Source of the DNA: Alienimonas chondri
GTDB lineage: Bacteria > Planctomycetota > Planctomycetia > Planctomycetales > Planctomycetaceae
DNA: 49,498 nt
Assembly: GCF_013036045.1 (NCBI RefSeq)
Contig: NZ_WTPX01000019.1
Location: 1 to 49,498 of the forward strand
Direction: 5' to 3'
Positions 39,054 to 49,430 of this stretch are shown here, piece after piece. The position numbers and the translations under genes are program-made. The number at the start of each line of letters is the position of its first letter. Within the stretch, counting starts at the first letter, position 1. A model generated the notes under the pieces. The model ran no database searches. It saw nothing but the letters and a program-made list of their open reading frames with translations, and was not told where the DNA came from.

Positions 39054-41573
39054 TCAGCCCCGCCGCAGGCGGAGGGCGTTGCCGATCACGCTGACGCTGG
39101 AGAGGCTCATCGCGGCGGCGGCGAGCATCGGGGAGAGCAGCCAACCGGTGAACGGGTACAGCAGGCCCGCGGCGATCGGCACGCCGGCGGCGTTGTAGAC
39201 GAAGGCGAAGAAGAGGTTCTGCTTGATGTTGCGCACCACGTCCCGGCTCAGCCGGACGGCCCGCACGATGCCGCGGAGGTCGCCCTTCACCAGCGTCACG
39301 CCGGCGCTCTCAATCGCCACGTCCGTGCCGGCGCCCATCGCGATCCCCACGTCGGCGGCGGCGAGGGCGGGGGCGTCGTTGATCCCGTCGCCGGCCATCG
39401 CCACGGTCCCCCCCTCGGCCTTTAGCTCCGCGACGCGGTCGTGCTTCCGCTGGGGGCTGACGCCGGCTTCCACCTCGTCGATATTCAGTTCCCGCGCGAC
39501 CGCCCGGGCCGTCGCCTCGTGGTCGCCGGTCAACATCACGATCCGCAGGCCCATCGCGTGCAAATCGCGGATCGCCTCGGCGGTGGTCTCCTTGATCGGG
39601 TCGGCGACCGCCAGCAGTCCGGCAGCCTGCTTCTCTCCGGACGGAGCCTCGATGGCGACGAAGAAGACCGTGCGCCCGTCGCTTCGCAGGCGATCCGCTG
39701 CGGCCGTTAGATCCTCGGGGAGGTCGACGCCGCGATCGGCCAGCAGGGCGGGGGCGCCGACGAGCACGGTGCGTCCCTCGACCGTCGCGGAGACGCCGCC
39801 GCCGGTGATCGATTCAAACCCCTCCGCGGCCGAGACCGTCGCCCCGCGATCCTCGGCCCCCCGCTCGACGGCCCGTGCGAGCGGATGTTCGCTGTGCCTC
39901 TCGACCGCGGCGGCGAGGCGGAGCAGGTCGTTCTCCTCGAATCCGTTCACGACACGCACCTCCGTGAGCGTCGGTTTGCCCTCCGTGAGGGTGCCGGTTT
40001 TGTCCACGACGAGTACGTCGCAGGAGCGGAGCGTTTCCAGGGCGGAGGCGTCCTTGAACAGCACGCCCTCCCGGGCGCCGCGGCCGACGCCGACCATCAC
40101 GCTCATCGGCGTGGCGAGGCCGAGGGCGCAGGGGCAGGCGACGATCAGCACGGCGACCGCGTTCACCAGCGCGAAGGCGAACGCCGGCTCCGGCCCGACC
40201 GCCCACCAGACGACGAACGCCAAGGCCGCGGCCGCCAGCACGAACGGGACGAAGTAGCCGGCGGCCCGATCCGCGACCCGCTGGATGGGGGCGCGACTCC
40301 GCTGGGCGTCGGCGACGAGGGCCACGATGCGCGACAGGACGGTGTCCTCTCCGACCCGCTCCGCCTCGATCAGCAGGGAGCCGGCGCCGTTGACCGTCCC
40401 GCCGATCACCGAGTCGCCCTCCTCCTTCCGCACGGGAACGGGTTCGCCGGTGACCATCGACTCGTCGACGTCCCCGCCGCCGTCGATCACGCGCCCGTCG
40501 GTTGGCACTTTTTCGCCGGGCCGTACGCGGAGCCGGTCGCCGGTCGTCACCTCGTCCAGCGGAACCTCCCGCTCGTCGCCGTCGTCGCTGACCACGCGGG
40601 CGGTCGGCGGGGCGAGCGAGAGCAGTTCCCGCAGCGCCGCGCCGGTCTTGCGGCGGGCCCGCAGTTCCATCACCTGACCGAGCAGCACGAGGACGACGAT
40701 CATCGCCGCTGCTTCGAAGTAGACGCCGATCAGGCCGCTGTGCTCCTCTCGAAACGTCTCCGGGAAGAGGCCCGGGGCGACGACCGCCGCGACGCTGTAG
40801 GCGTACGCCGCGGCCACGCCCAGGCCGATCAGCGTGAACATGTTGAGATGTCGGTTCACGACCGACTTCCACCCCCGCACGAAGAACGGCCAGCCGCACC
40901 AGAGCACCACCGGCGTCGCCAGAGCAAGTTGGAGCCAGTGGGAGGTTCGGGCTCCAATCCAATCGTGGACCGGCAGCCCGACCATCGGCCCCATCGCCAG
41001 CAGGATCACCGGCAGGCCGAGGGCCAAGCCGATCCAGAACCGGCGAGTCATGTCGACCAGTTCGGGGTCCGGTTCGTCCTCCGCCCCGCGAACCGCGACG
41101 GTTTTCGGTTCCAACGCCATCCCGCAGATCGGGCAGTCGCCGGGACCGTCCTGCTCGATCTGCGGGTGCATCGGGCAGGTGTAGACGGTCGTCCCGCCGC
41201 CCGGCTTCGTCGGCGGGCCGGATCGCTCCAACGCCATCCCGCACTTCGGGCAGTGGCCGGGCTCCTCGGCGACCACCTCCGGGTGACAGGCGCAGGTGTA
41301 CGCCCCGGCCGCGGTTCCGGGGGGGAGGGGAGACGACGAGCCGCCCTGTCCATGACAGCAACCGTGCGCCTCGTCGGCTTGGTTTGACGGGTCGAGGTAA
41401 CGCTCCGGATCGGCCGTGAACTTCGTTCGGCAGCCGTCGGAGCAGAAGCGGTACGTCTCGCCGGCGTGCCGGACCGTGCGGGGAGCGTCGACCGGGACCG
41501 TCATGCCGCAGACGGGGTCGGTGACGGTCCCCTCCGTCGCGGGAGCATCGAGAACCGGAAGGTCGTCGTTCAT
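39054..41573 (-). CDS. copA: copper-translocating P1B-type ATPase with three N-terminal metal-binding modules
   Basis: An 839-residue inner membrane pump that exports Cu(I) (or a similar soft metal) at the cost of ATP. The N-terminus carries a YHS domain (residues 18-60; DPVCGMTV, Cys22, Cys44 and Cys48) and two heavy-metal-binding modules (about 93-117, YTCACHPEV...CPKCGMALE; about 131-156, YTCPMHPQI...CPICGMALE) instead of the usual CxxC ferredoxin-like domain. Eight helices are expected. The ion-path motif CPC is at about residue 480 ([14 protein letters not shown]), the phosphorylated Asp in DKTGTLTEG at about 525, and the hinge in [20 protein letters not shown]. The Csp-like gene lies just upstream across a large hairpin, and csoR is close by, so copper-induced expression is likely. 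Confidence 0.95.
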
Positions 41574-41651: not shown

Positions 41652-41975
41652 TCAGGCGGCCATCGCGCCGCAGGACTCCGCGCACTTGCGGCACTGGGCG
41701 GCGCAGTCGCTCATCCCGACCTTCTCGCAGCTGTCCGCGCACCGCTGGCAAACCTCGCTGCAGGCCCGGCAGACGAAGTTGTGCAGGTCGCTGCCGCGGA
41801 TCATGAAGTCCGCGCAGGTCGCGCAAATCTGGATGCAGTCCAGCATCAATTTGACGTGCTCCTTCTCGACGTGCTCGCCGCCTTTCTCAAGGCAGACGTT
41901 CGTAAAGTGCTCCAGGCAGGTGCGGTGACATTCCTGACAGGTATCGATGCACTGTTTCATCGCGGCGTCGCTCAT
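41652..41975 (-). CDS. Cys-rich four-helix-bundle copper-binding protein (Csp/DUF326)
   Basis: A 107-residue protein of the copper storage family, in which a four-helix bundle holds many Cu(I) ions in a core lined by cysteines. The pattern is CIDTCQECHRTC, then CLEKGGEH, MLDCIQICATCADF, CRACSEVCQRCADSC and CAAQCRKCAESC, giving 17 or more cysteines spaced three or four residues apart. There is no export signal, so it is the cytosolic type that buffers copper. The ATG at 41975 was chosen because homology begins MSDAAMKQCIDTC; the frame upstream is not similar. An inverted repeat matching a CsoR operator lies 90 bases upstream, and copA follows downstream. Confidence 0.92.
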   Translation of the reverse strand: MSDAAMKQCIDTCQECHRTCLEHFTNVCLEKGGEHVEKEHVKLMLDCIQICATCADFMIRGSDLHNFVCRACSEVCQRCADSCEKVGMSDCAAQCRKCAESCGAMAA

Positions 41976-42064: not shown

Positions 42065-42081
42065 ATACCCACAGAGGGTAT
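42065..42081. promoter_or_regulatory. candidate CsoR operator upstream of csp
   Basis: ATACCCACAGAGGGTAT: the 6-base arms ATACCC and GGGTAT are exact inverted repeats around ACAGA. This matches the general form of CsoR-type operators (TACCC-N-GGGTA). It lies 90 bases before the Csp-like start, next to AT-richer sequence (TATTTCTAAAAA on the minus strand) that could hold the promoter. csoR itself is the next gene on the same strand. Confidence 0.65.
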
Positions 42082-42219
42082 GAACCGTGAAACGTCGAGA
42101 CCTCGGGTGGGGACGTTCCCGGAGTCGAGCTTCCCCGAAGCGCAACGCTTTCCGTAGAGAACTTTTCCGGGCGCGAGCGAGGCGGCCCGAAAGGGCGTCG
42201 AACCGGCGCCCGCACGGCG

Positions 42220-42513
42220 TCAGCGACCGCCGAAGTTGCCGTACCGGGCGAACACGCTCATCAACTCGCGAATCTTCGCCTTCCGCTCCGCGTCGTCCTC
42301 GGCCATGAAAGCGGCGGAGACGCAGGTGTCCATGTGATTTTCAAGCACGATATGGCCCACCTTGCCGAGGGCCGCCATCGCCGCCCGAACCTGCATCAGC
42401 ACGTCCACGCAGTACTTGTCCTCCTCGATCATCCGCCCCACCGCGGCCACCTGGCCCTCGGCGCGGCGGAGCCTTTTGCGGAGGGCCTCTTTCTGGTCGT
42501 CGTCGAGATTCAC
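42220..42513 (-). CDS. csoR: CsoR family copper-sensing transcriptional repressor
   Basis: A 97-residue all-helical repressor of the CsoR/DUF156 family, which leaves DNA when Cu(I) binds. The ligand triad is complete and at the classical spacing: Cys35 in DKYCVDVL, His60 and Cys64 in ENHMDTCV. The N-terminal helix KEALRKRLRRAEGQVAAVGRMIE carries the basic DNA-binding patch. The Cys-His-Cys set distinguishes it from the formaldehyde sensor FrmR and the nickel sensor RcnR. A candidate operator lies 73-93 bases upstream of its own start, suggesting autoregulation, and similar sites precede three other genes of the island. Confidence 0.95.
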   Translation of the reverse strand: MNLDDDQKEALRKRLRRAEGQVAAVGRMIEEDKYCVDVLMQVRAAMAALGKVGHIVLENHMDTCVSAAFMAEDDAERKAKIRELMSVFARYGNFGGR

Positions 42514-42585
42514 GAGGCTTGCGGACGGCGGACGGGCCGGAGGCTGAGAGAGGATGCTTACCGGCCGTGAGACCGTCAGCCCCTA

Positions 42586-42606
42586 TCCTACCGGACCCGG
42601 GTAGGA
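42586..42606. promoter_or_regulatory. candidate CsoR operator upstream of csoR
   Basis: The 21-base site has inverted arms TCCTACC (42586-42592) and GGTAGGA (42600-42606) around a GC-rich centre, the same TACC-N-GGTA form as the other sites. It lies between the DUF305 gene and csoR, so it most simply controls csoR itself. Confidence 0.6.
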
Positions 42607-42680
42607 CCGGCGAGGGGTCGCCGCGCCGGGCGGCCTGCAGTCGCCTCGCTGTGCCGCGCGAGACCGCGCGGCAGGGCGGA

Positions 42681-43133
42681 TCAGCGATCCGCTTCGAGGT
42701 CCGCGATCAGCCGGTTCATTTCGGCGATCTCCTCCCGCTGGGTTTTGATGATGCGGTCGGCCAGATCACGGACGCGGGCGTCGGAGATCTCCGCCCGCTC
42801 GCTGGTGAGGATCGCGATCGAGTGGTGCGGGATCATCGCCTTCATCCATGACGAGTCCTGCACCGTCTCCTGCGAGCGGACCAGCCACAGCGACCCCACG
42901 AAGACGACGACGGCCCCGGCGAGAATGCCGACGTTCGCCTTGCGGTTTTCATGCATCGACCACATGAACCCAATCATGATCACAGCCATCACCGCGCCCA
43001 TCAGCAGCGCCATATAAGCCCGCGTCTCGCTGAAGAGGACGTGATCGAGGGCGTAGGTGTTCAGGTACATCAGGCCGAACATCACCACGGTGGACGTGGC
43101 GATCATCAGGCCGAAGCGGACGTAGGCGTTCAT
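42681..43133 (-). CDS. DUF305 domain membrane protein
   Basis: A 150-residue protein with three transmembrane helices (about residues 5-25, 35-58 and 68-88), followed by the DUF305 core: DSSWMKAMIPHHSIAILTSERAEI and RVRDLADRIIKTQREEIAEMNRLI. The MIPHH motif and the later Met and Glu residues are typical of DUF305 proteins, some of which (for example CopM) bind copper at His/Met sites outside the cytoplasm. Several Met and His residues in the loops (MWSMHENR) would suit soft-metal binding. Its place between csoR and a Csp-like remnant supports a copper role. It is separated from csoR by a candidate CsoR operator, so it may be transcribed separately. Confidence 0.88.
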   Translation of the reverse strand: MNAYVRFGLMIATSTVVMFGLMYLNTYALDHVLFSETRAYMALLMGAVMAVIMIGFMWSMHENRKANVGILAGAVVVFVGSLWLVRSQETVQDSSWMKAMIPHHSIAILTSERAEISDARVRDLADRIIKTQREEIAEMNRLIADLEADR

Positions 43134-43238
43134 GGAATTCGATCGAACGGAGGCAAAATCAGGGAGGGAAGCCGCTCGGAGAAAGCCGGACGGCCTGATA
43201 CAGCAGGAGTAACGCTCCGGTGGGCGAGACGCCCAGAT

Positions 43239-43425
43239 CTAGGAGCGGCACATCTCGGCACATTTGCGGGAGGACTCCGCGCACCCCGCGACGACGGCGG
43301 ACTTACCGAAGGAAGCCAATCAAACTTCTGCGGGCCTGTTGTAGCACCCGGGGCTGGGCCGCTGCCTTGAACTCGACAGCGGGCAGGGCGGCGGCGACGG
43401 CGGACGGAATGTAACGGCGGTTCAT
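43239..43425 (-). pseudogene. remnant of an exported Csp-like Cys-rich protein
   Basis: An ATG at 43425 opens a short frame (MNRRYIPSAVAAALPAVEFKAAA) that looks like a Tat-type signal start but stops after about 40 residues. In another frame directly after it comes GKSAVVAGCAESSRKCAEMCRS and a stop at 43239, which has the Cys-X6-Cys-X3-Cys look of the end of four-helix copper-binding proteins. The middle with the other cysteines is missing and a frameshift separates the two pieces. This is probably the wreck of an exported copper-storage gene. The sign is short, hence modest confidence. Confidence 0.4.
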
Positions 43426-43550
43426 GGGAGTCTCCGGGAGAGAGAACGGGGGAAGATCGAGGGGGCGACGACCCCGCTCGTCTTGAGAAGAACACGCTGA
43501 CGAATCGGACACGCGACCGGGACGGGGGCCGGCTTCCCTACGCTCATGGG

Positions 43551-43569
43551 GATACGGCCCGGGGGTATC
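43551..43569. promoter_or_regulatory. candidate CsoR-like operator in a divergent intergenic region
   Basis: GATACGGCCCGGGGGTATC: outer arms GATAC and GTATC are exact inverted repeats, and the right half GGGGGTATC equals a full CsoR half-site, while the left half has two changes. It lies 114 bases before the propeller gene on the plus strand and 126 bases before the Csp-like remnant on the minus strand, so it could serve either. It is the weakest of the four sites. Confidence 0.45.
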
Positions 43570-43682
43570 TTCGATCCGCGCTCAAGGGAATTCGCCGGTC
43601 CCCCGCCGGCCGGAGGCGCGTTTGGGTGACGATCGTTTCGTCGCCGGCATCGGCGACCGCATTCCCCCCTCAGGAGATCCGC

Positions 43683-45149
43683 GTGTTTCAGCTTCTCCAC
43701 GCCGCGGCGGCCTTGGTGCTCGCCGGCTTGTTCCTCGCTCAATCGGCCGTCGCGGCCCCGCCCGCGCCCGATCCGGCCGCCGCGGAAGTGGCGGAGGGTT
43801 ACCGCATCGAGGTATTCGCCGACGGATTGGACTATCCCACCAGCGTCGAGCCGGACGGCGCCGGCGGGCTGTTCGTCGCCCTCTCCGGCGCGGCCCCGGG
43901 CGATCCGTCTGCCGAGCCCGCCCTGCTGCACTTCGCCGCCGACGGCGCCCGCCGCAGCGTGCCCGTCGACGGCCTCCAGGCGCCGGTCAACGATCTGCTG
44001 ATGCGCGACGGCAAACTGCTGATCTCGCACCGGACGAAGATTTCGACCCTCGACGACCCGCTCGGCGACGCCCCGGCGCTGCGAGATCTCGTGACGGGGC
44101 TGCCGAGTCTCGGGGACCACGAGAACAACCAACTCACGGTCGGCCCCGACGGCGGGCTGTACGTCGGCCAGGGCACGGCGACGAACTCCGGCGTCGTCGG
44201 TCTGGACAACAAGAAGTGGCTCAGCAAACGCCCAGACGTCCACGAGATCGCGCCCGTCCCGCTGCGGACCCGCGGCGCGGTCTTCCAGACGAAGGACCCG
44301 CTCTCCGACGGCGAAGCCGACGAGACGGCCCGGACCTCCGCCTATCAGCCGTTCGACACGTCCACCCCGGACGGGGCGACGATTCCCGGGGCGACCAAGG
44401 CGAACGGGACGGTGTTGCGGTTCGACGCGGACGGCTCGAACCCGTCGGTCTACGCCTGGGGCTTGCGGAACCCCTACGGCCTGTTGTGGGCCGGCGACAC
44501 GCTGTACGCGACGGAGAACGGCATGGACGTCCGCGGTAGCCGGCCGGTGGCGAACGATCTGGAAGACCTCTATGTCGTGAAGCGGGGCGCCTTCTACGGT
44601 TGGCCGGACTTCGGGTCCGGCGATCCGGTGACCGATCCGCGGTTCAAGCCAGAGGGCGAGCCGCAGCCGACGTTCCTGATGGCGGAGCATCCGCCCGTGG
44701 AGCGGCCCGCGGCGACCTACCCCAAGCATTCCTGCATCGTGAAACTGGATGCCTCGCCGGGCGGCGCGTTCGGCTTCGAGGGGCAGTTGTTCGTGGCCTT
44801 CTTCGGTCACATGACGCCCCGCACCGGCAATCCGCCTGAGGAGCACGGCGGCCACCGCGTGGTGCGGTTCGACCCGGCGACCGGCGAATCGACCACTTTC
44901 TTCGGCCCAAAACACCACGGCCACGGCGGTCGCGGCGAGAAGAGCCAAAGCGGACACGGCGATCACGGCCAAGGCCATACGCCGGGCGGATCGGCCGGGC
45001 CGCGCCGCCCGCTGGACGTCCGCTTCGCCGCGGACGGCTCCGCCCTGTACGTCGCCGACTTCGGCTTGATGCCGATGGACGAATCCGGGCCGCACGCCAA
45101 GCCCGGCACCGGCGTGATCTGGAAGATCGTGCCCGCGAACGCGGACTGA
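43683..45149 (+). CDS. secreted glucose/sorbosone-dehydrogenase-like beta-propeller with His-rich loop
   Basis: The start is the GTG at 43683, with AGGAG six bases before it (43672-43676); an in-frame ATG at 43626 lies upstream but has no such site. The product is about 488 residues with a signal peptide (LLHAAAALVLAGLFLAQSAVA). The body resembles soluble quinoprotein sugar dehydrogenases: IEVFADGLDYPTSVEPDG, TVGPDGGLYVGQGTATNSG, YAWGLRNPYGLLWAG and VVKRGAFYGWPDFG. Near residue 420 an inserted loop GPKHHGHGGRGEKSQSGHGD is rich in His and Gly and could bind copper. The C-terminus has LDVRFAADGSALYVADFG. Whether it uses PQQ is unknown. A CsoR-like site lies upstream. Confidence 0.85.
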   Translation: MFQLLHAAAALVLAGLFLAQSAVAAPPAPDPAAAEVAEGYRIEVFADGLDYPTSVEPDGAGGLFVALSGAAPGDPSAEPALLHFAADGARRSVPVDGLQAPVNDLLMRDGKLLISHRTKISTLDDPLGDAPALRDLVTGLPSLGDHENNQLTVGPDGGLYVGQGTATNSGVVGLDNKKWLSKRPDVHEIAPVPLRTRGAVFQTKDPLSDGEADETARTSAYQPFDTSTPDGATIPGATKANGTVLRFDADGSNPSVYAWGLRNPYGLLWAGDTLYATENGMDVRGSRPVANDLEDLYVVKRGAFYGWPDFGSGDPVTDPRFKPEGEPQPTFLMAEHPPVERPAATYPKHSCIVKLDASPGGAFGFEGQLFVAFFGHMTPRTGNPPEEHGGHRVVRFDPATGESTTFFGPKHHGHGGRGEKSQSGHGDHGQGHTPGGSAGPRRPLDVRFAADGSALYVADFGLMPMDESGPHAKPGTGVIWKIVPANAD

Positions 45150-45177
45150 GCGACGCGGGCGATCGCCGCTCCCGCCG

Positions 45178-46251
45178 TCAGCGGTCGGCGGGAGCGGCGA
45201 CCTCGTCCCAGTCGTAACGCATGAACGTGGTAAAGCGGCGGACGGTCGCGTTCCACTCCGCCCGCCGCAGCGCATAGCGGGAGAAACCCTCCTCGTCATC
45301 CCGACAGGCGACGCCGGCGGCCCGCAGCGTCGCCGCGGCCCGGAGGTAGTGGGCGTGCCAGCGGTCCCGCTCCACCGCGGTTTCCTCCGAGACGTCCTCT
45401 GATAGTCGGTCCGGCAGAAAGAGCGGGGCGAGTTCCTGCACCGGACGCAATCCCCCCCGCCACAGCGCTTCGACGGCGGCCGAGTCCGCCAACGTTTGCG
45501 CGTCCGGGCCGTCCGGAGCGGAGCGGATCAGCGAGGCGGCGTCGAGGGCGACGAACAGGATGCGGGCCATCGCGTACCGCGGTTTCGGCAGGCGGAAGTA
45601 GTGCAGGACGGGGTAGAAGTGGTGCGCCTCGAAGAGCTGGGCGAGTTCCCCGGACAGCGTCGTCAGATCCTGCGAGGCGACCGCCGGCGGTCCGGGCAGG
45701 AGGCCGGCGAGGTAGGTCGCGGCGTCGCCGGTGTCGCCGGTTCGTTGATGCAGGCCCAACGCGAAGACGTTCCGTCGGTTCAGGGCTTCATAGACGGACA
45801 TCATGTAGGTCAGGGCCAGCGTCAGATAGCTGAAGCCGACCGCCGCCTCCGCGACCATCAGCAGGCGGTAGGCGTCGGTGCGGGGGACGAGGTCGCCGGT
45901 GCCGAGCGTCGTCAGGTTGAACCCGGAGTAGTACAGGGCCGCAACGAAGTCGGTCGGCGTCTCCGCGTCGCCGCTGGCGGTCACCCCGTTGCCCAACGCC
46001 GGCCAGGTGACGAGCGCGAATCCGAACGCCAATAGCGCCCCCCAGGCTGCCACGCCGGCGACGACCGTGAGCGGGCCGGCTTGGCCCTTCGCACGATCTC
46101 CGCCCAGCGACGCAATCCACCAGACCCCGCGGCAGACCCCGCGCGTCACGGGCCCGCCGCGGCCCCGCGGCATCAGGACCGTGCGGTACAGGTCAAACGC
46201 CGCCAGCAGAACCAGTAAGCCGCCTGCGACCGAGCACAGGGCCTCGCTCAT
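45178..46251 (-). CDS. two-helix potassium channel family protein
   Basis: A 357-residue membrane protein. Early helices (about residues 3-22 and 58-85) lead to a pore region with the selectivity-filter-like motif TTLGTGDLVP at about residues 116-125 and a pore-lining helix LTLALTYMMSVYEAL. The first part YYSGFNLTTLGTGD is typical of Ion_trans_2 channels of bacteria. After about residue 150 comes a roughly 200-residue cytosolic region, helical and without a recognised RCK domain. The ATG overlaps the stop of the multicopper oxidase gene by 4 bases (ATGA), so the two are translated together. Potassium selectivity is inferred, since the filter reads TLGTGD rather than TVGYGD. Confidence 0.85.
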   Translation of the reverse strand: MSEALCSVAGGLLVLLAAFDLYRTVLMPRGRGGPVTRGVCRGVWWIASLGGDRAKGQAGPLTVVAGVAAWGALLAFGFALVTWPALGNGVTASGDAETPTDFVAALYYSGFNLTTLGTGDLVPRTDAYRLLMVAEAAVGFSYLTLALTYMMSVYEALNRRNVFALGLHQRTGDTGDAATYLAGLLPGPPAVASQDLTTLSGELAQLFEAHHFYPVLHYFRLPKPRYAMARILFVALDAASLIRSAPDGPDAQTLADSAAVEALWRGGLRPVQELAPLFLPDRLSEDVSEETAVERDRWHAHYLRAAATLRAAGVACRDDEEGFSRYALRRAEWNATVRRFTTFMRYDWDEVAAPADR

Positions 46252-47804
46252 CGCCCCGTCCCGACGCTCCCCGTTGCGCCGCCACCCATCGCCGCGTCGT
46301 TCATTCCGCCGCCCATTTCCATCTCCATCGGCGCCCAGTCGTAGCGGTCGTAGTCGCCGAAGCGGCGGACGATCTCGGCGAAGACGGCTCCTTTTTCGAC
46401 CGGCTCGTCGGTTTCCATCACCAGCCGATACAGATCGTCCGGCAGCACGCGGAGGGCGGTGAACAGGCCGCTGATCGTCTTGGGAGCGGTCGCCCGCATC
46501 CCCCTCATTTCGCGGCGGCTCCAGACCTTCTTCATCGCGGCCGGGTCCATTTTCATCCCCTGCATCATCTGCGGGTAGCCGGGGGGAACGTCGCCGAGCG
46601 CCTTGGAATTCAGATCGACCGCGGGGCGGGTCTCCAGGTTGGCGGTATAGCGACTGGTGTCAGTCTGTCCCCGCATCCGCGGGCCGACGTGCTGCACCAT
46701 ATGGTTCATCATATGGTGCGTCATATGGCAGTGCAGCGCCCAGTCGCCGGGGTTGTTGGCGATGAACTCCAGGTTCGAGGCCTGGGCCACGGCGATCAGC
46801 TCCGTGTTCCGCGGAATCCAGGCGGTTTTGGGAACCCGAGCTCCCTCGTGACCGGTCACCCAGAAGGTGTGCCCGTGCAAATGAATGGGATGATGCTGCA
46901 CCGGGCTGAAGTCCAAAATGCGGATTCGCACCCGCTCCCCGTGCCGGCAGACCAGCGGCGTTGTGTAGGGCCCGCTGCGGCCGTTGATCGTGTGCCAGTT
47001 AAAATCCATCCCCCAGCTGTCGACCACGGTGGTCATCGGGTCGATGCGGAAGTTTTGAAAGATCAGCCCGAAGTCGCGGTCCACCGGCGGATCGAACGGC
47101 TTTTGGGGATGGACGATGAACCACCCCACCATCCCGAACGTCTCCTGCATGGCGACGTGGGAGTGATAAAAGAACGTTCCCTCCTCGTGCACCTGGAACT
47201 GATAAACGTATTCCTTCCCGGGCTGGATCATATTCTGGGTGAGGTGCGAAGCGCCGTCCTCCTGGACCGGTAGTTCGAACCCGTGCCAGTGCACCGAGGT
47301 CGGTTCCGGCAGATCGTTTTTGACGACGAACCGGACCCGGTCCCCCTGCGTCACCTCGATCGTCGGCCCGGGCATCGACCCGTTGAAGCCGTAGACGTTG
47401 ATCTGGTGGCCCGGGAGGAACTCCCGGCTGACGGGCGTGCAGCTGAGATGGAAGACTTTCCAGCCGTTCTCCATCGTATACGGCAGTTTCTCGACGTCCG
47501 GAGCGACGAAGGGCGCCGGCCCGTCGACGCCTTTGCGGAAGCCCGGCACCTCTTTGCCGAGATACCATTTGGAATCCGGGTCGTGGCCGCGGCTGGGCTT
47601 ATAGCGGGAGAAGCCCTCGTAGTCCGCCCGCACCTCGTGCTCGTCCTGCGGTCGGGAACCGCCGGGCGGATCGGTCGGGCCGCCGGGGACGCGGAGCGGA
47701 TCGTGCTCCGGGCTCTCCTGAGCGACGGCGCGGGCGGCGAAGGCTCCGGCCGCGGCCGCGGTCCCGGCTTTGAGGAAGGAACGACGAGCTTCGGCGGCGG
47801 ACAT
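46248..47804 (-). CDS. Tat-exported multicopper oxidase
   Basis: A 518-residue periplasmic multicopper oxidase. The N-terminus EARRSFLKAGTAAAAGAFAARAVA is a twin-arginine signal, as needed for an enzyme folded with its metal. The four copper motifs are all present: HWHG at about residue 171, HSH at about 213, HPIHLHGHTF at about 305, and HCHMTHHMMNHM at about 361, where His-Cys-His-X3-His-X4-Met gives the type 1 site. The region following is Met/His-rich (MMQGMKMDPAAMKK). Such oxidases turn toxic Cu(I) into Cu(II), or act on metals or phenols, using O2. A CsoR-type operator lies 40 bases before the start. The gene is coupled to a potassium channel gene. Confidence 0.94.
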   Translation of the reverse strand: MSAAEARRSFLKAGTAAAAGAFAARAVAQESPEHDPLRVPGGPTDPPGGSRPQDEHEVRADYEGFSRYKPSRGHDPDSKWYLGKEVPGFRKGVDGPAPFVAPDVEKLPYTMENGWKVFHLSCTPVSREFLPGHQINVYGFNGSMPGPTIEVTQGDRVRFVVKNDLPEPTSVHWHGFELPVQEDGASHLTQNMIQPGKEYVYQFQVHEEGTFFYHSHVAMQETFGMVGWFIVHPQKPFDPPVDRDFGLIFQNFRIDPMTTVVDSWGMDFNWHTINGRSGPYTTPLVCRHGERVRIRILDFSPVQHHPIHLHGHTFWVTGHEGARVPKTAWIPRNTELIAVAQASNLEFIANNPGDWALHCHMTHHMMNHMVQHVGPRMRGQTDTSRYTANLETRPAVDLNSKALGDVPPGYPQMMQGMKMDPAAMKKVWSRREMRGMRATAPKTISGLFTALRVLPDDLYRLVMETDEPVEKGAVFAEIVRRFGDYDRYDWAPMEMEMGGGMNDAAMGGGATGSVGTGR

Positions 47805-47843
47805 CGAAACGCTGGGGCAGGGAAAAGAGCGAGAGGTCGGATT

Positions 47844-47860
47844 GTACCCCGTGGGGGTAC
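47844..47860. promoter_or_regulatory. candidate CsoR operator upstream of the multicopper oxidase
   Basis: GTACCCCGTGGGGGTAC: perfect 7-base arms GTACCCC and GGGGTAC around GTG, the best match to the CsoR form in the window. On the minus strand it runs into TACAAT, five of six bases of a -10 element, so a bound repressor would cover the promoter. The oxidase start is 40 bases downstream. Confidence 0.75.
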
Positions 47861-47909: not shown

Positions 47910-49430
47910 TCACCGCGGCTGGGCGGTCACGTCCAGGTGCCCGGGCGGCAGCGGGGCGGGGACGTTCAATCCGTCGTGGAGGAGGTATCCCCGGATCAGC
48001 GTCTCGCTGGTCCGCAGGGCGACGAGGTGCCCGATATAGCGTTGCCGCAGATCGAAGTAGCTGCTCTGCACTTTGAGGACGTCGGTCCACTGCTGGCGGT
48101 CCTCGGCGTAGGCGTCGAGCTGATTTTTATACGCCGCTCGGGCCTCCGGCAGGATCACCTGAGCGAACTGCTCGACGTGCTGACGGGCGGTGAGGTAGCG
48201 GCGGTATTGCATCGCCAGATCGCGGCGGAGCAGCATCTCCGTCCGCTGAATCTCCCGCCGCTGCCGCACCAGATCCGCTTCGGCCCGGCGGATGTTGCCC
48301 TGGTTGCGGTCGAAGATCGGAATGTCGAGCGACACGCTCAGGGCACCCGTCGTCTCCAACGCCTCGAAGTTATACCCGCTGCCCGCCTCGACGAAGACGT
48401 TGGGGATCGGTTCGACCAGTTCCCTCTTGAGCGTGATCTGATCTTCACGCAGCTTCTGCTTGGCCATGATGACCTGCGGAGCCTCTTCCAGGTACTCCTG
48501 ATACACCTGCTCGAAATCGATCTCCGCGGTCTCGCCGTCCAACTCGCCGACCACCGCCCCGGTCTCCAGCGGCAGGCCGATCAGGGAGGCGAGGGTTTGG
48601 AACTGCTCCAGATAGTCGTTCTCCGCCATCAGGAGGTTCAGCCGCGCCTCTTGCAACGCGACGTTCGCCAGGTGCAGATCGGAGCGCGTCGCCTGGCCGA
48701 GGTTCCACTGTTCCCGGGCGGTGACGAGGGCGTCCTCGGCGGCTTTGAGCAGATCTTCGCGGATCGCGACGGTCTGCTTGGCTCCGAGCGCCTGATAAAA
48801 GTGCACCCGCACGTCGTTGCAGACCCGCCACTGCTGGGAGACGGCCGCCCACTCCGCCACGCGGGTGCGTTGGAGGAACTTCGCCCGGCTGATGTCCCGC
48901 TTGTCCGCGGTAACGAACTCCTGCGTGATCGTCGCCCCCTGGAACTCGCCGGGGGTGTCCGTCTCGCCCTCGCGGTCGACGCCGATCTGCTCGCCGATAT
49001 AGCGGAACGTCGGATTCGGCCACAGTCCTGCCTCGACGGCCAGCCCCAGCGTACCCTGCACCTGGGCGCGGGCCTGCACGAGCGTCGGGTTGTTGGCGGC
49101 GGCCATCTCCAACGCCTCTTCGAGCGTCAGCGGGACCCCGGCGAAGGCGGCGTTCCGCCCTCCGTCCGTCGCGACGTCGAGGCTCCACGGGGCCTCGGGA
49201 ACCGGCGGCGGCTCCACGAACGACCGCCCGATCGGGCCGTCGTCGTCCGCGTGCAATTCGGGGATGTCTGACGGGACGGGGAGGTTCCCCCGCGTCGGGA
49301 CCGGCGGCGGCGCGGCGAGCGGGCCGTTCAGCGACGCGCGGCCGAAGTCCTGAGCGACGACGGTCGAGGTCAATGCACCCGCGGCGACGGCAGAGGCGAT
49401 TGCGTGGCGGAAGAGGAAGGGGCGGGGCAT
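47910..49430 (-). CDS. TolC family outer membrane channel protein
   Basis: A 506-residue outer membrane efflux protein. A signal peptide (ASAVAAGALTSTVVAQDF) and a Pro-rich linker are followed by the two-fold helical repeat of the family: LTLEEALEMAAANNPTLVQARAQVQGTLGLAVEAGLWPNP near residue 100 and the later TTGALSVSLDIPIFDRNQGNIRRAEADLVRQRREIQRTE. The second repeat is the normal TolC/CusC pattern. In the copper island it could be the CusC-like exit duct, but no CusA/CusB partners lie in the window and any to the right are out of sight. It starts 68 bases from the window edge. The oxidase begins 106 bases downstream on the same strand with its own operator between. Confidence 0.92.
   Translation of the reverse strand: MPRPFLFRHAIASAVAAGALTSTVVAQDFGRASLNGPLAAPPPVPTRGNLPVPSDIPELHADDDGPIGRSFVEPPPVPEAPWSLDVATDGGRNAAFAGVPLTLEEALEMAAANNPTLVQARAQVQGTLGLAVEAGLWPNPTFRYIGEQIGVDREGETDTPGEFQGATITQEFVTADKRDISRAKFLQRTRVAEWAAVSQQWRVCNDVRVHFYQALGAKQTVAIREDLLKAAEDALVTAREQWNLGQATRSDLHLANVALQEARLNLLMAENDYLEQFQTLASLIGLPLETGAVVGELDGETAEIDFEQVYQEYLEEAPQVIMAKQKLREDQITLKRELVEPIPNVFVEAGSGYNFEALETTGALSVSLDIPIFDRNQGNIRRAEADLVRQRREIQRTEMLLRRDLAMQYRRYLTARQHVEQFAQVILPEARAAYKNQLDAYAEDRQQWTDVLKVQSSYFDLRQRYIGHLVALRTSETLIRGYLLHDGLNVPAPLPPGHLDVTAQPR

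Follow-up and report, generated by a model that had tools for sequence, protein, structure and literature searches.

Does the copper island of the planctomycete Alienimonas chondri answer to a single regulator, and how far does that regulator reach? We analysed a stretch of 49,498 nucleotides (the window), which has a G+C content of 69% and is the entire contig C101 of a 5.3 Mb genome (G000). It carries genes for a copper storage protein (csp), a copper-exporting ATPase (copA), a multicopper oxidase and a CsoR-type regulator, and a first-pass annotation had proposed that this CsoR controls four transcription units through four inverted repeats. From the sequence, we consider it about 90% probable that A. 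chondri has a CsoR copper regulon with type 2 operators at csp-copA, at the oxidase and its channel-like partner, at csoR, in the region around position 43553, and at a distant TolC-type efflux gene. The main comparison genome (G001) is from the same genus; further loci are labelled L (L058, L060 and L061 lie in G001, L062 on contig C1 of G000).

The shared operator frame and the regulator

All four inverted repeats are present exactly at the positions given by the first-pass annotation (Table 1). As single palindromes, we rejected them as evidence, since such arm and spacer lengths occur at chance frequency in the window. Against the expectation from a first-order Markov sequence, the window contains 38 repeats of the form 6-N5-6 (33 expected), 105 of 5-N9-5 (114 expected), 13 of 7-N7-7 (7 expected) and 4 of 7-N3-7 (10 expected). 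What fits all four is one and the same frame of 15 bp, TAC-N9-GTA enclosing G/C tracts (TACCCACAGAGGGTA, TACCGGACCCGGGTA, TACGGCCCGGGGGTA and TACCCCGTGGGGGTA), which the first-pass annotation did not name. The evidence is this common frame; the individual palindromes, with their spacers of N5, N7, N9 and N3, carry no weight. This frame occurs five times in the window where 0.29 occurrences are expected, and 0 of 100 shuffles reach five. The fifth match (43800-43814) is probably a coincidence, because it lies within the coding sequence of a beta-propeller gene and is not conserved in G001.

The type 2 CsoR operator has been defined as a TAC/GTA inverted repeat that spans 9 bp and encloses G-tracts; sites from Streptomyces, Staphylococcus, Listeria and Bacillus align in this form, and swapping any TAC/GTA letter abolishes CsoR binding (Tan et al. 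2013, PMC3902906). The four predicted sites have this form: at the target promoters we find TAC-X9-GTA with two G/C tracts.

The csoR gene lies where it had been placed (42220-42513). Its product matches PF02583 with an E-value of 2.1e-26 (92.5 bits, cut-off 22.8) and is the only member of this family found in G000; the best solved relative is a CsoR (E 1e-16). The full Cys-His-Cys triad attributed to the protein is indeed there, with C35, H60 and C64, as well as the second-shell residues Y34 and E83, aligned to the CsoR proteins of Mycobacterium tuberculosis and Streptomyces lividans. In five planctomycete sequences these Cu(I) ligands, Y34 and E83, the RLRR motif in helix 1 and the glutamine Q41 are invariant. 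The last two align with RLXR and Gln, the residues that contact DNA in S. lividans CsoR (PMC3902906). A scan of genome contigs with the CsoR protein returned 8 relatives. An N-terminal His is a feature of the RcnR/InrS (Ni/Co) type; the first His of the window protein is residue 54, and the protein matches the NCBIfam RicR, FrmR and RcnR models far below their cut-offs. One of the G001 orthologs (L060) has a His at residue 2.

Placement in the genome and conservation

The genome-wide test in G000 consisted of pattern searches and the scoring of matches that had no more than one mismatch or followed the pattern TACSN7GGTA; sites departing at two or more positions from TACCC/GGGTA are only partly covered, and weaker sites may be missed. 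In 5.3 Mb there are three occurrences of the strict form TACCC-N5-GGGTA, each of them at a copper promoter (csp-copA, the multicopper oxidase and C1:1724). The site at C1:1724, on another contig, is the 15-mer of the csp site read on the other strand. A TolC-type gene (OEP, E 8e-28) follows 36 bp downstream of it, with CusB-like and AcrB/CusA-like genes as neighbours (L062, G000:C1, 1-8570). Since this predicted operator is the same 15-mer as the csp site, the regulon would extend beyond the window, and the earlier total of four transcription units was too low. G001 contains nine strict sites, eight of them at copper loci and the ninth within a glycosyltransferase-like coding region. The 57 further relatives have 0-6 strict sites per genome, and the genome with six encodes a CsoR and has two of the six in tandem directly before that csoR.

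A held-out matrix, trained on 12 G001 sites only and then applied to the G000 candidates, gave the highest scores to the sites at 47845 (oxidase), C1:1724 and 42066 (csp), with values of 20.5, 19.2 and 19.2. All three are copper promoters, and no position in 60 Markov windows attains these scores. The motif is specific enough in G000 to predict further regulon members.

The sites also recur at matching positions in G001. This genome encodes three CsoR orthologs (94, 90 and 85% identical), and in 3/3 a site precedes the start codon of the gene by 76-88 bp, compared to 83 bp in G000. Corresponding sites stand before two copies each of csp, the oxidase gene and a cusC-like gene, and the 43553 15-mer is identical at the orthologous place (L061:11521). 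At the csp, csoR, oxidase and cusC promoters, the TAC/GTA letters are 100% identical between G000 and G001 and the CC..GG letters 88-100%, whereas the central N5 is 33-73% and the 60-bp flanks are 32-55% identical. Outside the genus, csoR homologs of two other planctomycetes, a Brevibacterium, a clostridium and a chloroflexus are preceded by TAC-N9-GTA at a distance of up to ~180 bp.

CsoR-type copper switches are of a well-understood kind. In A. chondri, apo-CsoR would occupy the type 2 operators and repress as long as copper is absent, and Cu(I) bound at Cys35-His60-Cys64 would release CsoR from them. Cytosolic storage (Csp), cytoplasmic export (CopA), periplasmic oxidation (the multicopper oxidase) and envelope efflux would then rise jointly. 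Taken together, the original finding is real and its interpretation mostly correct, with partial support overall: control of csp-copA and of the oxidase is strongly supported and that of csoR is supported by position, while the assignment of the 43553 site to the propeller gene is uncertain.

Points against and rival explanations

Several points weigh against the regulon as we describe it. The total genome counts of the motif are not raised; what is non-random is the placement. The csoR site at 42589 has the lowest matrix score among the four (11.4), and ~36 such scores are expected per 5.3 Mb by chance, so this site looks weak by sequence and it is the conserved position that argues for it. 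A sigma-70 promoter scan of the region found none, and therefore any overlap of the operators with promoter elements is conjecture. The comparison of footprints between the two genomes relies on ungapped alignments anchored on the site. Binding, Cu(I) release and the transcriptional response are what we infer from the CsoR family. Finally, control of the propeller gene by the 43553 site is possible, with an ambiguous target.

This site lies in a divergent intergenic region, with the propeller gene on the plus strand and the remnant of an exported Csp-like gene, followed by a DUF305 gene, on the minus strand. Measured from its centre, the distance is 123 bp to the start of the propeller gene and 135 bp to the ATG of the remnant. 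The remnant keeps its start (MNRRYIPSAVAAALP, ATG 43425) and its end (AESSRKCAEMCRS), and the middle is missing. At the same place in G001 there is an intact homolog of 151 residues (L061:10943-11398), secreted and Cys-containing, again followed by a DUF305 gene. The G001 protein has no Pfam match; its Cys pattern and leader suggest a resemblance to exported Csp. Two facts make the target of the 43553 site uncertain: the divergent gene is intact in G001 and a remnant here, and G001 has another copy of the propeller gene (from L058:13707) that is not directly preceded by a copper-type site. Either the propeller gene or the DUF305 unit may be the reason why the site persists, or its loss may simply not have happened yet.

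A rival reading is that the true targets are only csp-copA, the oxidase and the distant efflux promoter, and that the csoR and 43553 sites are chance matches or decayed. The low score of the csoR site speaks for this, as does the score of 13.8 for the 43553 site, of which ~5 are expected per 5.3 Mb. However, the orthologous G001 positions keep both sites, and the score of the 43553 site rises to 18.6, a value not reached in the null, once two flanking bases on either side are included. This latter score is not fully independent, as the G001 counterpart with its identical sequence is among the 12 training sites. On balance, we regard the smaller set of targets as unlikely.

The sites could also be operators of a different copper regulator (CopY/BlaI, CueR/MerR or a two-component system), with the neighbouring CsoR acting elsewhere. 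Two-component and sigma-factor copper systems as well as BlaI-type homologs have been reported from Planctomycetota (PMC10141476). However, the CopY-type box KACANNTGTM has 0 matches in the window, which leaves the sites outside the CopY/BlaI class, and the CueR-type box is not above chance there. Moreover, the frame is the published CsoR frame (PMC3902906) and stands directly before csoR in several phyla. We therefore give another regulator very little credence. Slightly less probable still is that the repeats are transcription terminators or other intergenic hairpins. The 42589 repeat does lie between the DUF305 and csoR genes with a perfect 7-bp stem in G000, and one weak terminator-like stem overlaps the 47845 site, but the stem count is at chance (3 vs 3.9), G001 preserves TAC/GTA at the 42589 site but not the outer stem, and the sites of G000 lie upstream of genes, 36-123 bp from their starts. 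A cluster of short palindromes arising by chance in a window so rich in G+C would agree with the chance frequency of such arm lengths, but the TAC-N9-GTA count, the genome placement, the conservation across species and the held-out matrix make it extremely improbable.

Genes of the island and related systems

Table 1. Predicted operators, inverted repeats and genes of the copper island (window coordinates)
Feature	Position	Strand	Description
copA	39054..41573	-	copper-exporting P-type ATPase, N-terminal YHS + HMBD domains; follows csp after a gap of 78 bp
csp	41652..41975	-	Csp3-like copper storage protein, Cys-rich, predicted four-helix bundle; cytosolic, no signal peptide
Inverted repeat 6-N5-6	42065-42081		ATACCC-ACAGA-GGGTAT
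Predicted CsoR operator	42066..42080	-	TACCC-N5-GGGTA; centre lies 98 bp ahead of csp ATG, upstream of csp-copA
csoR	42220..42513	-	97 aa, Pfam PF02583; Y34/C35/H60/C64/E83, RLRR 14-17, Q41
Inverted repeat 7-N7-7	42586-42606		TCCTACC-GGACCCG-GGTAGGA
Predicted CsoR operator	42589..42603	-	TACCCGGGTCCGGTA on coding strand; upstream of csoR, centre 83 bp before GTG
DUF305 membrane protein	42681..43133	-	weak match to CopM-family metallochaperone model
Exported Csp-like gene remnant	43239..43425	-	start MNRRYIPSAVAAALP, end GCAESSRKCAEMCRS; internally deleted, out of frame
Inverted repeat 5-N9-5	43551-43569		GATAC-N9-GTATC
Predicted CsoR operator	43553..43567	.	TACGGCCCGGGGGTA; divergent intergenic region
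Exported beta-propeller (GSDH-like) gene	43683..45149	+	GTG 43683, preceded by AGGAG, is the likely start; operator centred 123 bp upstream
Ion_trans_2 potassium-channel-like protein	45178..46251	-	4-bp overlap with oxidase stop (ATGA)
Multicopper oxidase	46248..47804	-	Tat-type leader, CopA/CueO-like
Inverted repeat 7-N3-7	47844-47860		GTACCCC-GTG-GGGGTAC
Predicted CsoR operator	47845..47859	-	TACCCC-N3-GGGGTA; upstream of multicopper oxidase, centre 48 bp before ATG
TolC-type outer-membrane efflux protein	47910..49430	-	upstream of oxidase; promoter near or beyond contig end (49498)

The assignment of csp to the Csp3 type follows from sequence matches to 3lmf (E 6e-28), RkCsp3 (E 2e-20) and Csp3, and the NCBIfam Csp1 model scores far below its cut-off. 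No copZ was seen in the copA operon. On the coding strand, the 47845 site ends in a TA that opens the sequence TACAAT, which could be a -10 element. The channel-like protein contains a filter-like motif, TTLGTGD. The oxidase-channel pair recurs in G001 (L058), there too behind a CsoR-type operator, and a 38% identical channel homolog follows csoR in the planctomycete TBK1r (L103:6287-7348). Because the channel gene overlaps the oxidase gene behind the operator in both Alienimonas genomes and has a homolog beside csoR in another planctomycete lineage, we tentatively suggest, at somewhat less than even odds, that it truly belongs to the CsoR response, namely a copper-induced ion channel co-translated with the oxidase. 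The regulon is of interest as it appears to include this partner and a Csp gene, and the predicted direct control of csp is relevant to the switching of copper storage in bacteria.

One of the closest characterized systems is that of S. lividans (csoR, copZA1 and copZA2; PMC3902906), with which A. chondri shares the type 2 operator with G-tracts, the autoregulation site, a CopA-type ATPase as a target and the C-H-C, RLXR and Gln residues. Unlike in S. lividans, the predicted targets in A. chondri also comprise the Csp3-like gene before copA, the oxidase with its channel-like partner and the efflux gene by the cusBA-like genes. Bacillus subtilis CsoR-copZA has the same operator frame (aligned in PMC3902906) and also targets a P-type ATPase, but B. 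subtilis CsoR has few targets, grouped around a single efflux operon, whereas the units predicted here are several and include those for storage, oxidation and envelope efflux. M. tuberculosis CsoR and RicR belong to the same family and have the C-H-C site; the M. tuberculosis CsoR site differs in that GTA and TAC stand in inverted order and the spacer is longer (PMC3902906), and RicR acts on several units, among them those for a multicopper oxidase and a metallothionein that protects against copper (PMC10141476).

In the planctomycete TBK1r (CP036432, L103), the locus reads copA-tolC-oxidase-csoR-channel; its CsoR is 57% and its oxidase 64% identical to those of A. chondri, and TAC-N9-GTA stands before copA and by the tolC gene. 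This locus differs in that csoR lies downstream of the oxidase and lacks a site of its own, and the L103 stretch compared contains no csp. A survey of marine bacteria lists its Planctomycetota sample with only two-component and sigma-factor copper systems and no CsoR (PMC10141476). A complete predicted CsoR regulon, a kind of switch hardly described in this phylum, is legible in A. chondri and recurs in other planctomycetes.

Two further loci of G001 touch on this family. Behind a strict CsoR-type site lies the gene for a small secreted protein containing Met and Cys (L058:11280-11771, minus strand) without a Pfam match; it is a possible additional copper-binding target that is absent from the window. 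A diverged CsoR-family gene (L058:12592-12945) is preceded by a different type of repeat, TACTGGTGGGTAGTA, and its relatives at L032-L034 carry similar TACTGG...AGTA sites, which suggests a second operator class in planctomycetes.

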